This document shows, in pieces, positions 34 through 40,118 of a DNA stretch of 53,517 nt (the stretch's first letter is position 1; the number at the start of each line of letters is the position of its first letter). The translations under genes and the position numbers were made by a program. Location: positions 27,754 through 81,270 of the forward strand of contig JAALOD010000003.1 in NCBI GenBank assembly GCA_013372845.1, in the 5' to 3' direction. A model generated the notes under the pieces. That model ran no database searches. It worked only from the letters and a program-made list of their open reading frames with translations, and was not told the DNA's origin. Source of the DNA: Candidatus Udaeobacter sp. Its GTDB lineage: Bacteria > Verrucomicrobiota > Verrucomicrobiia > Chthoniobacterales > UBA10450.

Positions 34-1723
34 ATGCGACAAAATTCTCCCGTCCCTGTCTTCGGCCTGCTCTTGTGGCTGATATTCGCCAGCACGGGCC
101 GAGCTCAGGGTGGTGGTACCTGGCAAACACGGGCTCCGATGCCTCTGAGCCGACAGGAACTCGCGGCGGGGATACTAAATGGGAAGCTGTACGTCCTTGG
201 CGGTTACGATGCGAGTCGTGCCTCCACGGCCAATGTGCAGGTGTATAATCCTACCACAGACACGTGGACTTCGGCGCATCCGATTCCTTATCCGGTTAAT
301 CACAACGCCGCCGCTGTGGCGGGAGGAAATCTCTACAGTTTCGGTGCCGGAGCAGGCGAAGTGTTTCTTTACAATGCAAACAACAACTCGTGGGTTGCAC
401 GAGCTTCCAGCCATTATGTGTACAGCCAAACCGCGGCCGTCGGAGTGATCAACAATCAGATTTACGTTGCCGGCGGCACGGGTACTCCCAGCCAGCGCCA
501 GTTGGAGGTGTACGATCCGGTCTCGAACACTTGGACGATTAAGGCGCCCATGAGCGTTCCGCGCAATCACACCGGTGGCGGCGTGATCGATGGCAAATTT
601 TATGTTGTAGGTGGACGAGTCTCTGACAATGGACCACCAACGGCCGCCCTCGAGGTTTACAATCCGCAGACCAACAGCTGGTCCGGTCGTGCCGATGCCA
701 GCTGCCCGCGCCGGTATCGCGGCGGCGGTGGTGGATAACGAACTCTGGGTCTTCGGTGGGGAAGAACAGGATGGTTTGCATGGGGAAGTGGAAGTATATA
801 ATCCTGTCAGTAACACTTGGCGCCGCGAGCCCAACATGCCTTTACCGCGCCATGGGAGTTGGGCATCGGTTATCGGAAACAAAATCTATATCCCAGGTGG
901 CGGCGCCCGCGCAGGCTTGGCTCCTACGAATACAAACCAGATCTTTACCGTCGATGAATTACTTGACTCCGGAGCGGCTGCAGTGGCTGACTTTAACGCT
1001 GACGGACACCCGGACTGGGTGGTTCGTAATGCCGGAACGCGTCAGACGGCGATCTGGTATCTAAACAACAATGTCTTGGTCGGTGGCGCGTTGGGCCCGA
1101 CTCTTCCGGTCAGTTGGGGACTGAGAGGTGCAGCGGATTTCAATGGAGACATCCATCCGGATTATGGCTTGTTCAACTTAGCTAGTCGCCAAACCGCAAT
1201 CTGGTATTTGTCAGGGCCAACGTTCATTGGAAGCGCTTTTGGGCCGACTCCGCCCGGTGGCTGGGCGTTGGTGGCTATTGCTGATTTTAACGGCAACAAG
1301 AAGCCGGACTACGTCCTCTACAACGCTGGCACGCGTCAAACAGCAATCTGGTATCTGAGCAACAACATCTTCGTTAGCTCTGCATTCGGCCCAACTCTTC
1401 CTTCCGGTTGGGGACTGAGAGGTGTGGCGGATTTCAATGGCGACGGCCATCCTGATTACGCTTTGGTCAACTCCGCGACTCGCCAAACAGCAATTTGGTA
1501 TTTATCAGGGCCAACGTTTATCGGAAGCGCTTATGGGCCGACTCCGCCCGGCGGCTGGGCGTTCGTGGCTACCAAAGACTTTAATGCCAACGGAAAGCCG
1601 GACTATGTGCTTTACAACGCTGGTACGCGTCAAACAGCAATTTGGTATTTGAACAACAACGTTTTCGTCAGCGCCGCCTTCGGCCCAACTCTTCCAGCCG
1701 GTTGGAGCTTGATCGGGCCTTGA
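34..1723 (+). pseudogene. Kelch-repeat protein with C-terminal FG-GAP/VCBS-like repeats, split by an apparent frameshift near 693
   Basis: ORF 34..738 has kelch blades (GKLYVLGGYD, VYNPTTDTWT, NQIYVAGGTG). The next blade (PMPAARAGIAAAVVDNELWVFGGE) continues in the +1 frame of ORF 611..1723, which then carries about five TRQTAIWYL...GPTLP.GW...ADFNGDGHPDY repeats. Confidence 0.8.
985..1720 (+). repeat. Coding tandem repeat: about 49-aa units alternating A-B-A-B-A, higher-order period 294 bp
   Basis: tcagggccaacgtt(c/t)at(t/c)ggaagcgctt(t/a)tgggccgactccgcccgg(t/c)ggctgggcgtt starts at about 1211 and again at about 1505, an offset of 294 bp (98 codons). Confidence 0.85.
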
Positions 1724-15719: not shown

Positions 15720-15854
15720 TTGTAGGGTGTCTGTGTCGGGCGCCATCTAACGGATTGGCGTTTCACAGAATGGAGCCGGCGGGAGCCGAGCGACATAGAC
15801 GGGAAGCCCCGACCGGGTGAGGGAGCTGGCGCGAGCGAATCAAACGCCCTACAA
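15720..15854. repeat. Palindromic interspersed element (family 1, TTGTAGGG...CCCTACAA), 135 bp
   Basis: Left end TTGTAGGGTGTCTGTGTCGGGCGCC; right end, reversed, TTGTAGGGCGTTTGATTCGCTCGCGCC. The left end matches the half-copy at 40094..40118. Confidence 0.75.
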
Positions 15855-20778: not shown

Positions 20779-20888
20779 GTTTTGTAACGGCATTCGCCGC
20801 AGCGAACGCCGGATATGAAAATAGGCGCTCGCGAGTCGCTGTACAACGTCGCGTGCAGGTCGCCGATCTGCAGTTAAGTTACAGCGGA

Positions 20889-22616
20889 ATGGGACTGGCC
20901 GAATACAAGCGGAAACGCGACTTCAAGAAAACAGTTGAGCCGGCCGGGGGCAAACCGTTACCGCGAAGAGTCAAAGGGGCGTCGCGTTTTGTTATTCAAA
21001 AACACGCAGCACGCCGTTTGCACTATGACTTTCGCCTGGAGATGGAGGGTGTGCTGAAATCGTGGGCATTACCGAAAGGGCTCCCTTGGAAGCGAGGTGA
21101 GAAACACCTGGCCGTAGAAGTGGAAGATCATCCAATCGAATACGAGCAGTTCGAAGGCATTATTCCCGAGGGGCAATACGGCGGCGGCACCGTGATGGTG
21201 TGGGACTGTGGTAATTATCGCGTCTATGGCGAGCAGCCGGCGAAATCGTTGCGCGAAGGCAAGCTCCATCTCGTTCTCGACGGCGAAAAAGCAAAAGGCG
21301 AATGGACCCTGGTCCGGATTCGGGGTCGTGATGATGCCAAGAATCAGTGGTTGATCCTGAAAACAGGAGATGGCGCGAAGCCGATATCGAAAAAAATGGA
21401 AGACCGTTCGGTGAAAACTGGACGCACCATGCAGCAAATCGCAAAAGATCGCGATGCCCAGTGGGAGTCCGGTCGCGAAGCAGACGAGAGTCCCACATCC
21501 CAATTCAAAGCACGGATTCGTGCCGCATCAAAAAAAAAAGAAAAGGATGAGGTTGTAGGGCAGACGCGTCGCCTGCCGGTCGCGACGCGGGGCAACCCGC
21601 CTCAGGCGGGTCGCCCTACAATGGCAGCCCTGCCAGATTTGCACTCGGCAAAGGCTCGTTTCATCGAACCGATGAAAGCGAAGCTGGTTGAGGAACCACC
21701 AGCGACGGGCGATTGGATTTATGAGCTTAAGTTTGACGGCATCCGCCTGATCGGAGTCAAAAGGGACGACAAAGTTTCACTGCTATCGCGAAATGAAAAC
21801 GAATTGAGTAAGCGATTCCCCGAGATCGTAGAAGCGATAAAAACTTTGCCGGCGCGCGAATGCGTAATCGATGGCGAAGTGGTTGCGCTCGACGAGGAGG
21901 GACGGTCTTCTTTTCAACTGTTGCAAGCGCGCGAGATGGAAGGACGAAAGAGTCCTGTTTATTTTTATGCATTCGATCTACTCCAGCTTGACGGCAAAAG
22001 CCTGCTTTCACTGCCATTGGAGGCGCGCAAGAACGTTCTCGAAAAGCTCTGCGGCGGCGCGGGCGATCCCATTCGTTATTCGGGTGCGATTGGCGGGGAC
22101 GCACAACGGCTGCTCGAAGAAGTGAAGCGACGCGGTCTCGAGGGAATCATCGGCAAACAACGTAACTCTGTTTACGAACCTGGACGCAGAAGCGGTGCGT
22201 GGATCAAGCTTAAATGCGTTAGTGAACAGGAATTCGTCATCGGCGGATACACTCCGCCGCAAGGATCACGCAAATATTTCGGCGCAATTCTGGTTGGCTA
22301 CTATGAGAACAAAAAGCTCGTTTTTGCCGGGAAAGTCGGCACTGGGTTCACTGCAAAATCGTTGTCGATGCTCTACAAGAAATTCCAAAAGGAAGCACGC
22401 GACGATTGCCCGTTTGTCGATTTACCATCAAAGCAAAATGGGCAATGGGTACAGGACATCACGCCCTCGATGATGCGGAAAATGCATTGGGTAAATCCGG
22501 TTTTCGTTTGTGAAATTAAATTCGCCGAGTGGACGCGAGACAAAAAATTGCGTGCGCCGGTCTTCCTCGGGTTGCGGGAAGATAAGAAGCCGGGCGAGGT
22601 TGTCCGGGAGGGTTAA
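20889..22616 (+). CDS. ligD: LigD-type 3'-phosphoesterase plus ATP-dependent DNA ligase (no polymerase domain)
   Basis: FVIQKHAARRLHYDFRLEMEGVLKSWALPKGLP (PE domain); YELKFDGIRLIGVK (ligase KxDG nucleotidylation motif), EGIIGKQRNSVYEPGRRSGAWIKLK. Start ATG at 20889 preferred over 20853. Confidence 0.93.
   Translation: MGLAEYKRKRDFKKTVEPAGGKPLPRRVKGASRFVIQKHAARRLHYDFRLEMEGVLKSWALPKGLPWKRGEKHLAVEVEDHPIEYEQFEGIIPEGQYGGGTVMVWDCGNYRVYGEQPAKSLREGKLHLVLDGEKAKGEWTLVRIRGRDDAKNQWLILKTGDGAKPISKKMEDRSVKTGRTMQQIAKDRDAQWESGREADESPTSQFKARIRAASKKKEKDEVVGQTRRLPVATRGNPPQAGRPTMAALPDLHSAKARFIEPMKAKLVEEPPATGDWIYELKFDGIRLIGVKRDDKVSLLSRNENELSKRFPEIVEAIKTLPARECVIDGEVVALDEEGRSSFQLLQAREMEGRKSPVYFYAFDLLQLDGKSLLSLPLEARKNVLEKLCGGAGDPIRYSGAIGGDAQRLLEEVKRRGLEGIIGKQRNSVYEPGRRSGAWIKLKCVSEQEFVIGGYTPPQGSRKYFGAILVGYYENKKLVFAGKVGTGFTAKSLSMLYKKFQKEARDDCPFVDLPSKQNGQWVQDITPSMMRKMHWVNPVFVCEIKFAEWTRDKKLRAPVFLGLREDKKPGEVVREG
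21553..21621. repeat. 69-bp palindromic element of family 1 inserted in frame in ligD
   Basis: TTGTAGGGC...GCCCTACAA termini; internal hairpins CGCGTCGC/GCGACGCG and ACCCGCC-TCA-GGCGGGT; length 69 = 23 codons, translated as VVGQTRRLPVATRGNPPQAGRPTM. Confidence 0.88.
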
Positions 22617-32002: not shown

Positions 32003-32902
32003 ATGCAGCAAGTTACCGTCCGCGTTCCGGCGAGCACCTCAAATCTCGGTCCTGGTTTCGATTGCCTCGGTGTCGCGCTGCGCATTTATAACAGCGTAAC
32101 AGTTACTAGCGGTCGATCGCCGGAACAACCCCACCCGCAAATTGTCTCACAGGCGGCCGGGCGATTTTTCAAACGGGCCCGTCGCCGCGTGTTTCCGTTT
32201 TCCTCTTCAATCGTCGAAGAAATTCCCCGGTCGCGAGGTCTGGGTGGCAGCGCAACCATTCGCCTTGGCATTTTGCATGGGCTCAACCGGCTCAGCGGCG
32301 ATCCGCTCGACCGATTCGCGTTATTCCGATTATGCGCTGAGTTGGAAGGTCATCCTGATAACGCTGCGCCGGCGACCTTCGGCGGTTTTACGGTGGTGGT
32401 AGGTTCGTCGCTTCGCGCCGACCGGTTGGCGCAGCGCGGCGTCCCTGCGTTTCAGCGCTTTGAAGTTTCGTCGCAGTTGTATTTCGTTTTACTGGTTCCG
32501 GAGCTTGAAATTCGAACTTCGATAGCACGAAAGCTCCTGCCATCCAAAATTTCGCATGCCGAAGCGGTTGAGAATTGTGGAAACGCGTGTGCAATTACTG
32601 CGGCCTTCGCTTCAAAAAACTACAAGAACCTTCGGGGCGCATTCGGCGATTTCATTCATCAGCCGTTTCGCGCAAAACTGATACCCTTTCTTCCCGGCGT
32701 CATCACTGCGGCCGAAAAAGCGGGCGCGCTTGGCGCCTTCCTTAGCGGCAGTGGCTCGACAATCTGCGCCATTACGTTGCAACATCCAGATCGGGTCGCT
32801 GTGGCTATGAAGCGCGCTACGCGGGTGAGACCTGCCCGGACGATCGTCACCCGCGCCGATAATCGCGGCGGGCAAATTTTAAATCTGAAATCTAAGATTT
32901 AA
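32003..32902 (+). CDS. thrB: Homoserine kinase
   Basis: VTVRVPASTSNLGPGFDCLGVALRIYN; IPRSRGLGGSATIRLGILHGLN; GHPDNAAPATFGGFTVV; start chosen at MQQVTVRVPAS. Confidence 0.92.
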   Translation: MQQVTVRVPASTSNLGPGFDCLGVALRIYNSVTVTSGRSPEQPHPQIVSQAAGRFFKRARRRVFPFSSSIVEEIPRSRGLGGSATIRLGILHGLNRLSGDPLDRFALFRLCAELEGHPDNAAPATFGGFTVVVGSSLRADRLAQRGVPAFQRFEVSSQLYFVLLVPELEIRTSIARKLLPSKISHAEAVENCGNACAITAAFASKNYKNLRGAFGDFIHQPFRAKLIPFLPGVITAAEKAGALGAFLSGSGSTICAITLQHPDRVAVAMKRATRVRPARTIVTRADNRGGQILNLKSKI

Positions 32903-39562: not shown

Positions 39563-40102
39563 GTGTCTCGCCGAATCGTTATTGCTTACTGGCTCATTCC
39601 AAGTGAGCCGGCACGCAGTTATTTCCAAAGTCTCATTAACGATCTCGCGCAACGATACGACGCACCTGTGTTCGAGTCACATGTGACGGTCCACGTCGGA
39701 GCGAAATGCACGGATGGTGTTGAAGGAGTGCTTTCAGAAGCTGCACGAGGCTGCGAACGAATCGTGCTCCAGGCGCTCGAGGTCAATGGGTCCTCTGAGT
39801 TTACTAAAACACTTTTCGTGCGGTTCGCAGTGACCACGCAATTGCAGCGGCTTAATCAAAGCATTCGTATCGCGGCGCAAAATTCGTCTGATTACCAGCT
39901 AAGTCCGCACTTGAGCCTCCTCTATAAAACGATCTCGACTCAGGATCGACACCTGCTGACGCATTCCATTGACGTGCCATTTCCTGAAGTAACGTTTGAC
40001 TCGTTGAAAGCTGTCCGATGTGTTTCACCCACACAAAGCCGCGCCGATGTGGAAGCATGGCGCGTGGTGGCTGAGAAACCGCTCGGATCGATTGGCGCCT
40101 GA
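39563..40102 (+). CDS. 2H phosphoesterase superfamily (2'-5' RNA ligase/cyclic phosphodiesterase-like)
   Basis: Two HxTx-like motifs: FESHVTVHVG and LSPHLSLLYK. Confidence 0.8.
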   Translation: MSRRIVIAYWLIPSEPARSYFQSLINDLAQRYDAPVFESHVTVHVGAKCTDGVEGVLSEAARGCERIVLQALEVNGSSEFTKTLFVRFAVTTQLQRLNQSIRIAAQNSSDYQLSPHLSLLYKTISTQDRHLLTHSIDVPFPEVTFDSLKAVRCVSPTQSRADVEAWRVVAEKPLGSIGA

Positions 40103-40118
40103 CACAGACGCCCTACAA
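40094..40118. repeat. Half-copy of family 1 element (reverse)
   Basis: Reverse complement TTGTAGGGCGTCTGTGTCAGGCGCC versus TTGTAGGGTGTCTGTGTCGGGCGCC at 15720. Confidence 0.85.

Follow-up and report, generated by a model that had tools for sequence, protein, structure and literature searches.

A GTAG-tagged palindromic element read in frame within the linker of a verrucomicrobial LigD-type DNA ligase

The window analyzed here, a stretch of 53,517 nucleotides from the genome of a Candidatus Udaeobacter sp., contains a LigD-type gene in which a 3'-phosphoesterase domain and an ATP-dependent DNA ligase domain are joined by a linker, and a 69-bp palindromic segment is located within this linker (Table 1). 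In the preliminary description, which was made from the sequence alone, the sequence, length, and boundaries of this segment had been given correctly. Its proposed placement between the phosphoesterase domain and the ligase domain agrees with the Pfam assignments, and it indeed comprises 23 codons without a stop in the frame used, within an intact open reading frame. In an AlphaFold2 model based on 23 aligned sequences, residues 207–256 had pLDDT values below 50, and this part of the linker is thus predicted to be disordered.

Table 1. Positions of the features in the window (nucleotides, or residues of the LigD-type protein).
Feature	Position	Strand	Remarks
Type B REP, inverted pair	15720..15854	.	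between genes; shares only the GTAGGGC head with type A
LigD-type gene	20853..22616	+	587 aa; ORF intact
3'-Phosphoesterase domain	residues 49-155		Pfam LigD_N
Linker	residues about 176-285		
ATP-dependent DNA ligase domain	residues about 285-578		
A10 run, codons TCA AAA AAA AAA GAA	21530..21539	+	conserved A9 tract of LigD linkers; candidate slippage site
Type A REPIN, 69 bp, in frame	21553..21621	+	encodes VVGQTRRLPVATRGNPPQAGRPTM (residues 234-257)
Left REP: GTAG and hairpin GGCAGACGCGTCGCCTGCC	21555..21577	+	1 mismatch to the genomic consensus GGCAGGCGC.TCGCCTGCC
TAG of the left GTAG tag	21556..21558	+	stop 5 codons beyond the tract in the frame that is one A short
Right REP, inverted: GTAG and hairpin GGCGACCCGCCTGAGGCGGGTTGCC	21591..21619	-	
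Type B REP, single	40094..40118	-	between converging genes; shares only the GTAGGGC head with type A

The 69-bp segment is a REP doublet (REPIN) with GTAG tags. Its two units are inverted relative to each other, and in each of them a short imperfect palindrome has the tetranucleotide GTAG at its foot. The inverted pair folds into one hairpin, the outer stem of which is formed by the two boundaries of the element, TTGTAGGGC/GCCCTACAA. The folding energy as single-stranded DNA was −26.2 kcal/mol (z −4.5; 0 of 200 shuffled sequences as good), with the proposed three-way junction as the fold, and the folding energy as RNA was −40.7 (z −3.7), again with none of 200 shuffles as good. REPINs have been described as two inverted REPs with a spacer that together form a hairpin, and as being distributed in extragenic space (PMC3116915). 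The window element shares the inverted pair, as well as the RAYT flanking described below, but differs in being coding. An extragenic location is typical of REPINs, not exclusive to them, and the coding position does not exclude membership because GTAG REPs inside genes have been documented (PMC3733652).

The element was surveyed in 719 kb of this 3.22 Mb genome. The sequence TGTAGGGC occurs five times in the window, compared with 0.56 expected occurrences. The consensus of the type A element, derived from the other copies in this genome, is TTGTAGGGCAGGCGC.TCGCCTGCC; it gave 13 matches in the 719 kb and none with the reversed pattern as a control, and additional type A copies are present in the rest of the genome. 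Type A REPs were also found across the family, with weak matches in some of the genomes. For all element types together, 62 matches at 49 loci were obtained, again with none in the reversed control, and 38 of the 49 loci are outside of called genes, though 85.5% of the sequence is coding. The element is numerous and dispersed in this genome, and the proposal that it belongs to a set of dispersed mobile palindromes is supported by these other REP copies. The proposal that the elements at 15720..15854 and 40094..40118 carry the same terminal motif and form one mobile family with it held only for the shared GTAGGGC head; these two sites have a different hairpin, of the GGCGTCTGTGTCAGACGCC type (type B), which rules out a single family for the three sites. 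A type D match inside a gene at 32424–32449 had five mismatches and was taken as a chance match.

A RAYT-like gene of this genome (L034, contig C52) has two type A REPs on its upstream side, at 34 and 71 nt, and two on its downstream side, at 5 and 79 nt. The encoded protein of 145 aa has plainly recognizable HuH (PDHLH) and YIQENPVRAGLV motifs and scores 21.9 bits with Y1_Tnp, slightly short of the Pfam cut-off of 23. Similarly, type C REPs flank a RAYT-like reading frame in L213. Two more RAYT-like genes of this genome (L031 and L033) are flanked by other GTAG palindromes (GTAGCCACGGCCC... and GTAGCGGTGCTTG...).

The segment had been likened to the Rickettsia palindromic elements (RPEs), which have a length of about 150 bp, or are shorter with a CGTC tag, and are inserted in frame into conserved genes (summarized in PMC10969869 and PMC3733652); these elements were known before the in-gene GTAG REPs (PMC10969869). 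The likeness applies insofar as the window element is a dispersed palindrome that lies in an intact gene and is read in frame as part of the linker, and as such palindromes are present in LigD and in other conserved genes. In addition, as in RPEs, one reading frame is used in different hosts, namely VVGQxxRLP in LigD and in Mfd. Membership in the RPE family did not hold. Neither of the RPE hallmarks, a CGTC tag or the RPE-1-like length of about 150 bp, is found in the 69-bp element, and its GTAG tag, its length, and its RAYT link rule out membership; the RPEs, as described in the available parts of these two sources, are reported without a RAYT link. The comparison is therefore an analogy, and the earlier interpretation, which is partly supported, was right in spirit and wrong in family.

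To compare the linkers, 66 LigD homologues of this verrucomicrobial family were used, from about 80 genomes that were sampled for this one gene. Among the named organisms in the genome collection, the closest relatives are Verrucomicrobia from soil, one of them a Candidatus Udaeobacter MAG. Protein matches to the window LigD were found in all 35 genomes of the genus (only weak ones in G025), and 43 of the 48 other genomes of the family match with E ≤ 1e-100. Instead of a conserved non-repeat linker throughout, the relatives have the same insert, other palindromes, or none. Those at 94, 84, and 81% identity carry the type A insert, eroded to varying degrees, while others have an element of type C (GGTAGGGCGCGACCGCCGGGCGCGCC...CCCTACC), type D (GGTAGGGACGCCGCGCTGCGGCGTCC), or type E (CTGTCATTCCGAGCGAAGTCGAGGAATCCC...CAGGATGACAG; without the GTAG tag) at the same spot, and in the linker of L169, a type C REPIN is nested in a type A half element. 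Altogether, at least four unrelated palindrome families occupy this spot across the 66 homologues, nearly always in frame, with the reservations that element calls in degraded linkers are uncertain and that some of the consensus 3' ends were derived from the LigD copies themselves. Nearly all linkers have a length that is a multiple of three, the exceptions being L054, L156, L157, and L158. Linkers free of any element are common; they are too diverged to reveal the exact insertion junction, and a clean empty site was not found among them. Insertion of the RAYT/IS200 type is not expected to leave a target-site duplication. Elements of types C, D, and E occur as repeats dispersed through 35, 33, and 35 of the 35 genomes of the genus, respectively, with no matches in the reversed-pattern controls. 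For the type E palindrome (TGTCATTCCGAGCGAAG...), which was present in all 35, no transposase was identified, and no paper matching it by sequence was found in the literature searched.

On a LigD tree built from the two flanking domains of 66 rows, with the linker left out, the linker state changed at least 22 times, or at least 14 times when only strong calls were considered, numbers that do not separate gain from loss. For example, the sister rows L130 and L140, which are joined with a support of 100, carry a type C and a type E element, respectively. Between seven close pairs, 18, 23, and 29 substitutions were observed at codon positions 1, 2, and 3, and this near-even spread indicates that the insert peptide is under weak constraint.

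In-frame inserts were not confined to LigD. In the 719 kb, convincing cases were found in LigD, in the RID domain of Mfd, in a cysteine desulfurase, and in a linker that joins acyltransferase and hydrolase-like parts; genic matches in doubtful ORFs (L197, L211, L237, and others) were not counted. The Mfd insert (L005, C74:7211-7281 of this genome) is a type A REPIN inside the RID (CarD-like) domain, and it is read as VVGQAPRLP, as in LigD. A type E palindrome is present in frame at the same site of the cysteine desulfurase in two species (C78:20004-20032 of this genome, and L223) and encodes the peptide VIPSxVEESx...DPSxPKAFGAQDD. Relatives within the genus have in-frame type E or C elements in Obg, Ffh, aspartyl-tRNA synthetase, and a carboxyltransferase (L228, L217, L202, and L203). 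Related proteins of about 480–510 aa (C63:20731-20756 of this genome, and L199) have an in-frame type C REP near residues 70–90, and the C63 protein matched no Pfam family.

Elements of this kind are already known. Di Nocera et al. (2013; PMC3733652) described in-frame GTAG REPs inside genes, many of them DNA repair genes, with dimers encoding 20–30 residues; the verrucomicrobium Opitutus terrae had the most in-gene GTAG REPs, including one in a DNA ligase. In the same study, the recB genes of two Xanthomonas species were reported to carry different REPs at nearly the same site, flexible linkers were suggested as tolerant sites, and an adaptive role of REPs in repair genes was raised as speculation. 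The window element resembles this set in its GTAG tag, its short hairpins, and its in-frame position in a conserved gene. It differs from the set as described there in that the LigD linker has been filled in series by no fewer than four families, of which one lacks GTAG, beside a conserved A9 tract.

We consider it very probable that the disordered LigD linker received a REPIN, an element type that RAYT (Y1 tyrosine) transposases disperse, and that this insert was kept in frame, was tolerated, and is now decaying. The insert would have survived as 23 linker codons because a length that is a multiple of three, together with an open frame, keeps the protein fused; it would then have decayed under little constraint at the protein level, and in related species, other REP families and one palindrome without GTAG would have filled the tolerant linker anew. 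We infer that a RAYT moved the LigD copy and that tolerance, not benefit, explains the recurrence. The repeated refilling of one site of a DNA repair gene, as well as the numerous REPs in repair genes described in PMC3733652, might instead point to selection of the insert for a change of LigD activity or of linker length. Such an adaptive capture appears improbable in view of the unrelated peptides that the different elements encode, the almost even distribution of substitutions over the codon positions, the frequency of element-free linkers, and the inserts in proteins outside of DNA repair. Many elements are located 0–15 nt downstream of the A9 tract, as would be expected if REPINs targeted the A tract as a preferred insertion site. 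However, the mean longest A/T run near the REPs of the genome was 3.31, compared with 3.28 at random positions, runs of at least six were absent near the REPs compared with 3% at random positions, the type E element without GTAG occupies the same site, and elements are also present in linkers without the tract (L134, L138), so that targeting is very unlikely. Linkers could also pass from one species to another by recombination of ligD alleles, with no new transposition, in which case few insertion events would be required. Related lineages do share element families, but distinct families with distinct boundaries at the same site, including the nested element of L169, argue against such an exchange, and local sources exist because nearly every genome contains dispersed copies of each family. 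We therefore regard allele exchange as an unlikely origin of the linker types.

More speculatively, LigD may be a dual-product gene that makes use of RNA polymerase slippage on the A9 tract, which would be an added layer to REPIN insertion and not a strict rival of it. Messenger RNAs with 9 (or 9+3n) A residues would give the fusion of phosphoesterase and ligase, and the others would stop early and give the phosphoesterase alone. The sequence past the tract would otherwise be free, so that mobile palindromes could build up in it, and one of the stops would often be the TAG within the GTAG tag. There is a precedent in dnaX of Thermus thermophilus, in which slippage on a sense-strand A9 gives a longer and a shorter protein, the full product results from 9 or 9+3n A residues, and a stop is near in the other frames (Baranov et al., PMC1088944). 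LigD shares this layout, a conserved in-frame A9 run with nearby stops in the slipped frames; slippage is established for dnaX, and for LigD it is suggested by the sequence. Within the 719 kb, the A10 run of the window gene is the only A/T run of at least 9 nt inside a called gene. An A9 or A10 run is present in 45 of 65 linkers of the family and directly precedes the inserts; the rest of this region turns over freely, and about 20 of the 65 lack the run. The lysine codons of the tract are AAA in 40 of 40 and 43 of 47 cases, compared with a mean of 61% (range 34–84%) at 35 other conserved lysine columns. The run lengths spike at nine outside of the family, too, where 12 of 64 linkers have A9 or A10 (A9, n = 11; A8, n = 1; A7, n = 2), among them linkers of Bacteroidota, Acidobacteria, and another verrucomicrobium, and one of the acidobacterial genes has only 23% AAA. 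The tract-bearing linkers are found among L115–L144 and L155–L190 and in L049, L063, L067, L068, L079, L082, L094, L096, L097, L100, L104, and L114, a listing that covers A9 (A10) tracts in three phyla. The spelling AAAAAAAAA for KKK was found at 1 of 59 non-ligase sites (about 11 expected), compared with 54 of 117 in ligase ORFs (Fisher p 3e-11, with no correction for the relatedness of the sequences).

The stops in the two slipped frames follow the tract at medians of 4 and 5 codons, compared with 21 and 15 in the ligase domain, and both are within 6 codons in 18 of 40 linkers, compared with 1.9 for codon-shuffled linkers. In most genes with a type A element, the stop in the frame that is one A short is the TAG of the GTAG tag, and the close stops are thus in part a by-product of the in-frame tag. 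In addition, three genes (L054, L157, and L158) have a templated A10, for which only the reading with nine A residues gives the fusion, though such variants could be assembly errors. It should be noted that the sequences are related, so the counts overstate independence, and that ribosomal frameshifting would predict much the same. Tentatively, the LigD of several phyla may thus use A9 slippage to yield a fused ligase and a phosphoesterase-only protein, and in soil Verrucomicrobia the mobile REPs, which would have landed past the tract again and again, may serve as the linker in the long product and provide the stop codon in the short one. No paper on slippage in LigD was found in the literature searched, and this reading is the part of the present work most worth testing.

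Although the kind of element has been published, including the case in an Opitutus DNA ligase (PMC3733652), three aspects appear to be new with respect to the literature searched, namely that one joint has been filled in series by no fewer than four families, that the elements of these soil bacteria are assigned to a RAYT-linked type, and that LigD carries the A9 tract. The LigD linker provides a replicated series of mobile DNA turning into protein, in which unrelated palindromes have entered one joint of one enzyme many times, and element-free and element-bearing relatives can be compared within the same lineages. The Rickettsia observation now also applies to core proteins and to soil bacteria with a free-living lifestyle. 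In addition, the A9 tract may bear on the question of whether bacteria make two proteins from LigD, a main enzyme of end joining.

In L156, one base is lost beside the tract. This gene, as well as L054, L157, and L158, is frameshifted yet open on both sides, and the four are candidates for slippage-tolerant alleles or, alternatively, for assembly errors.
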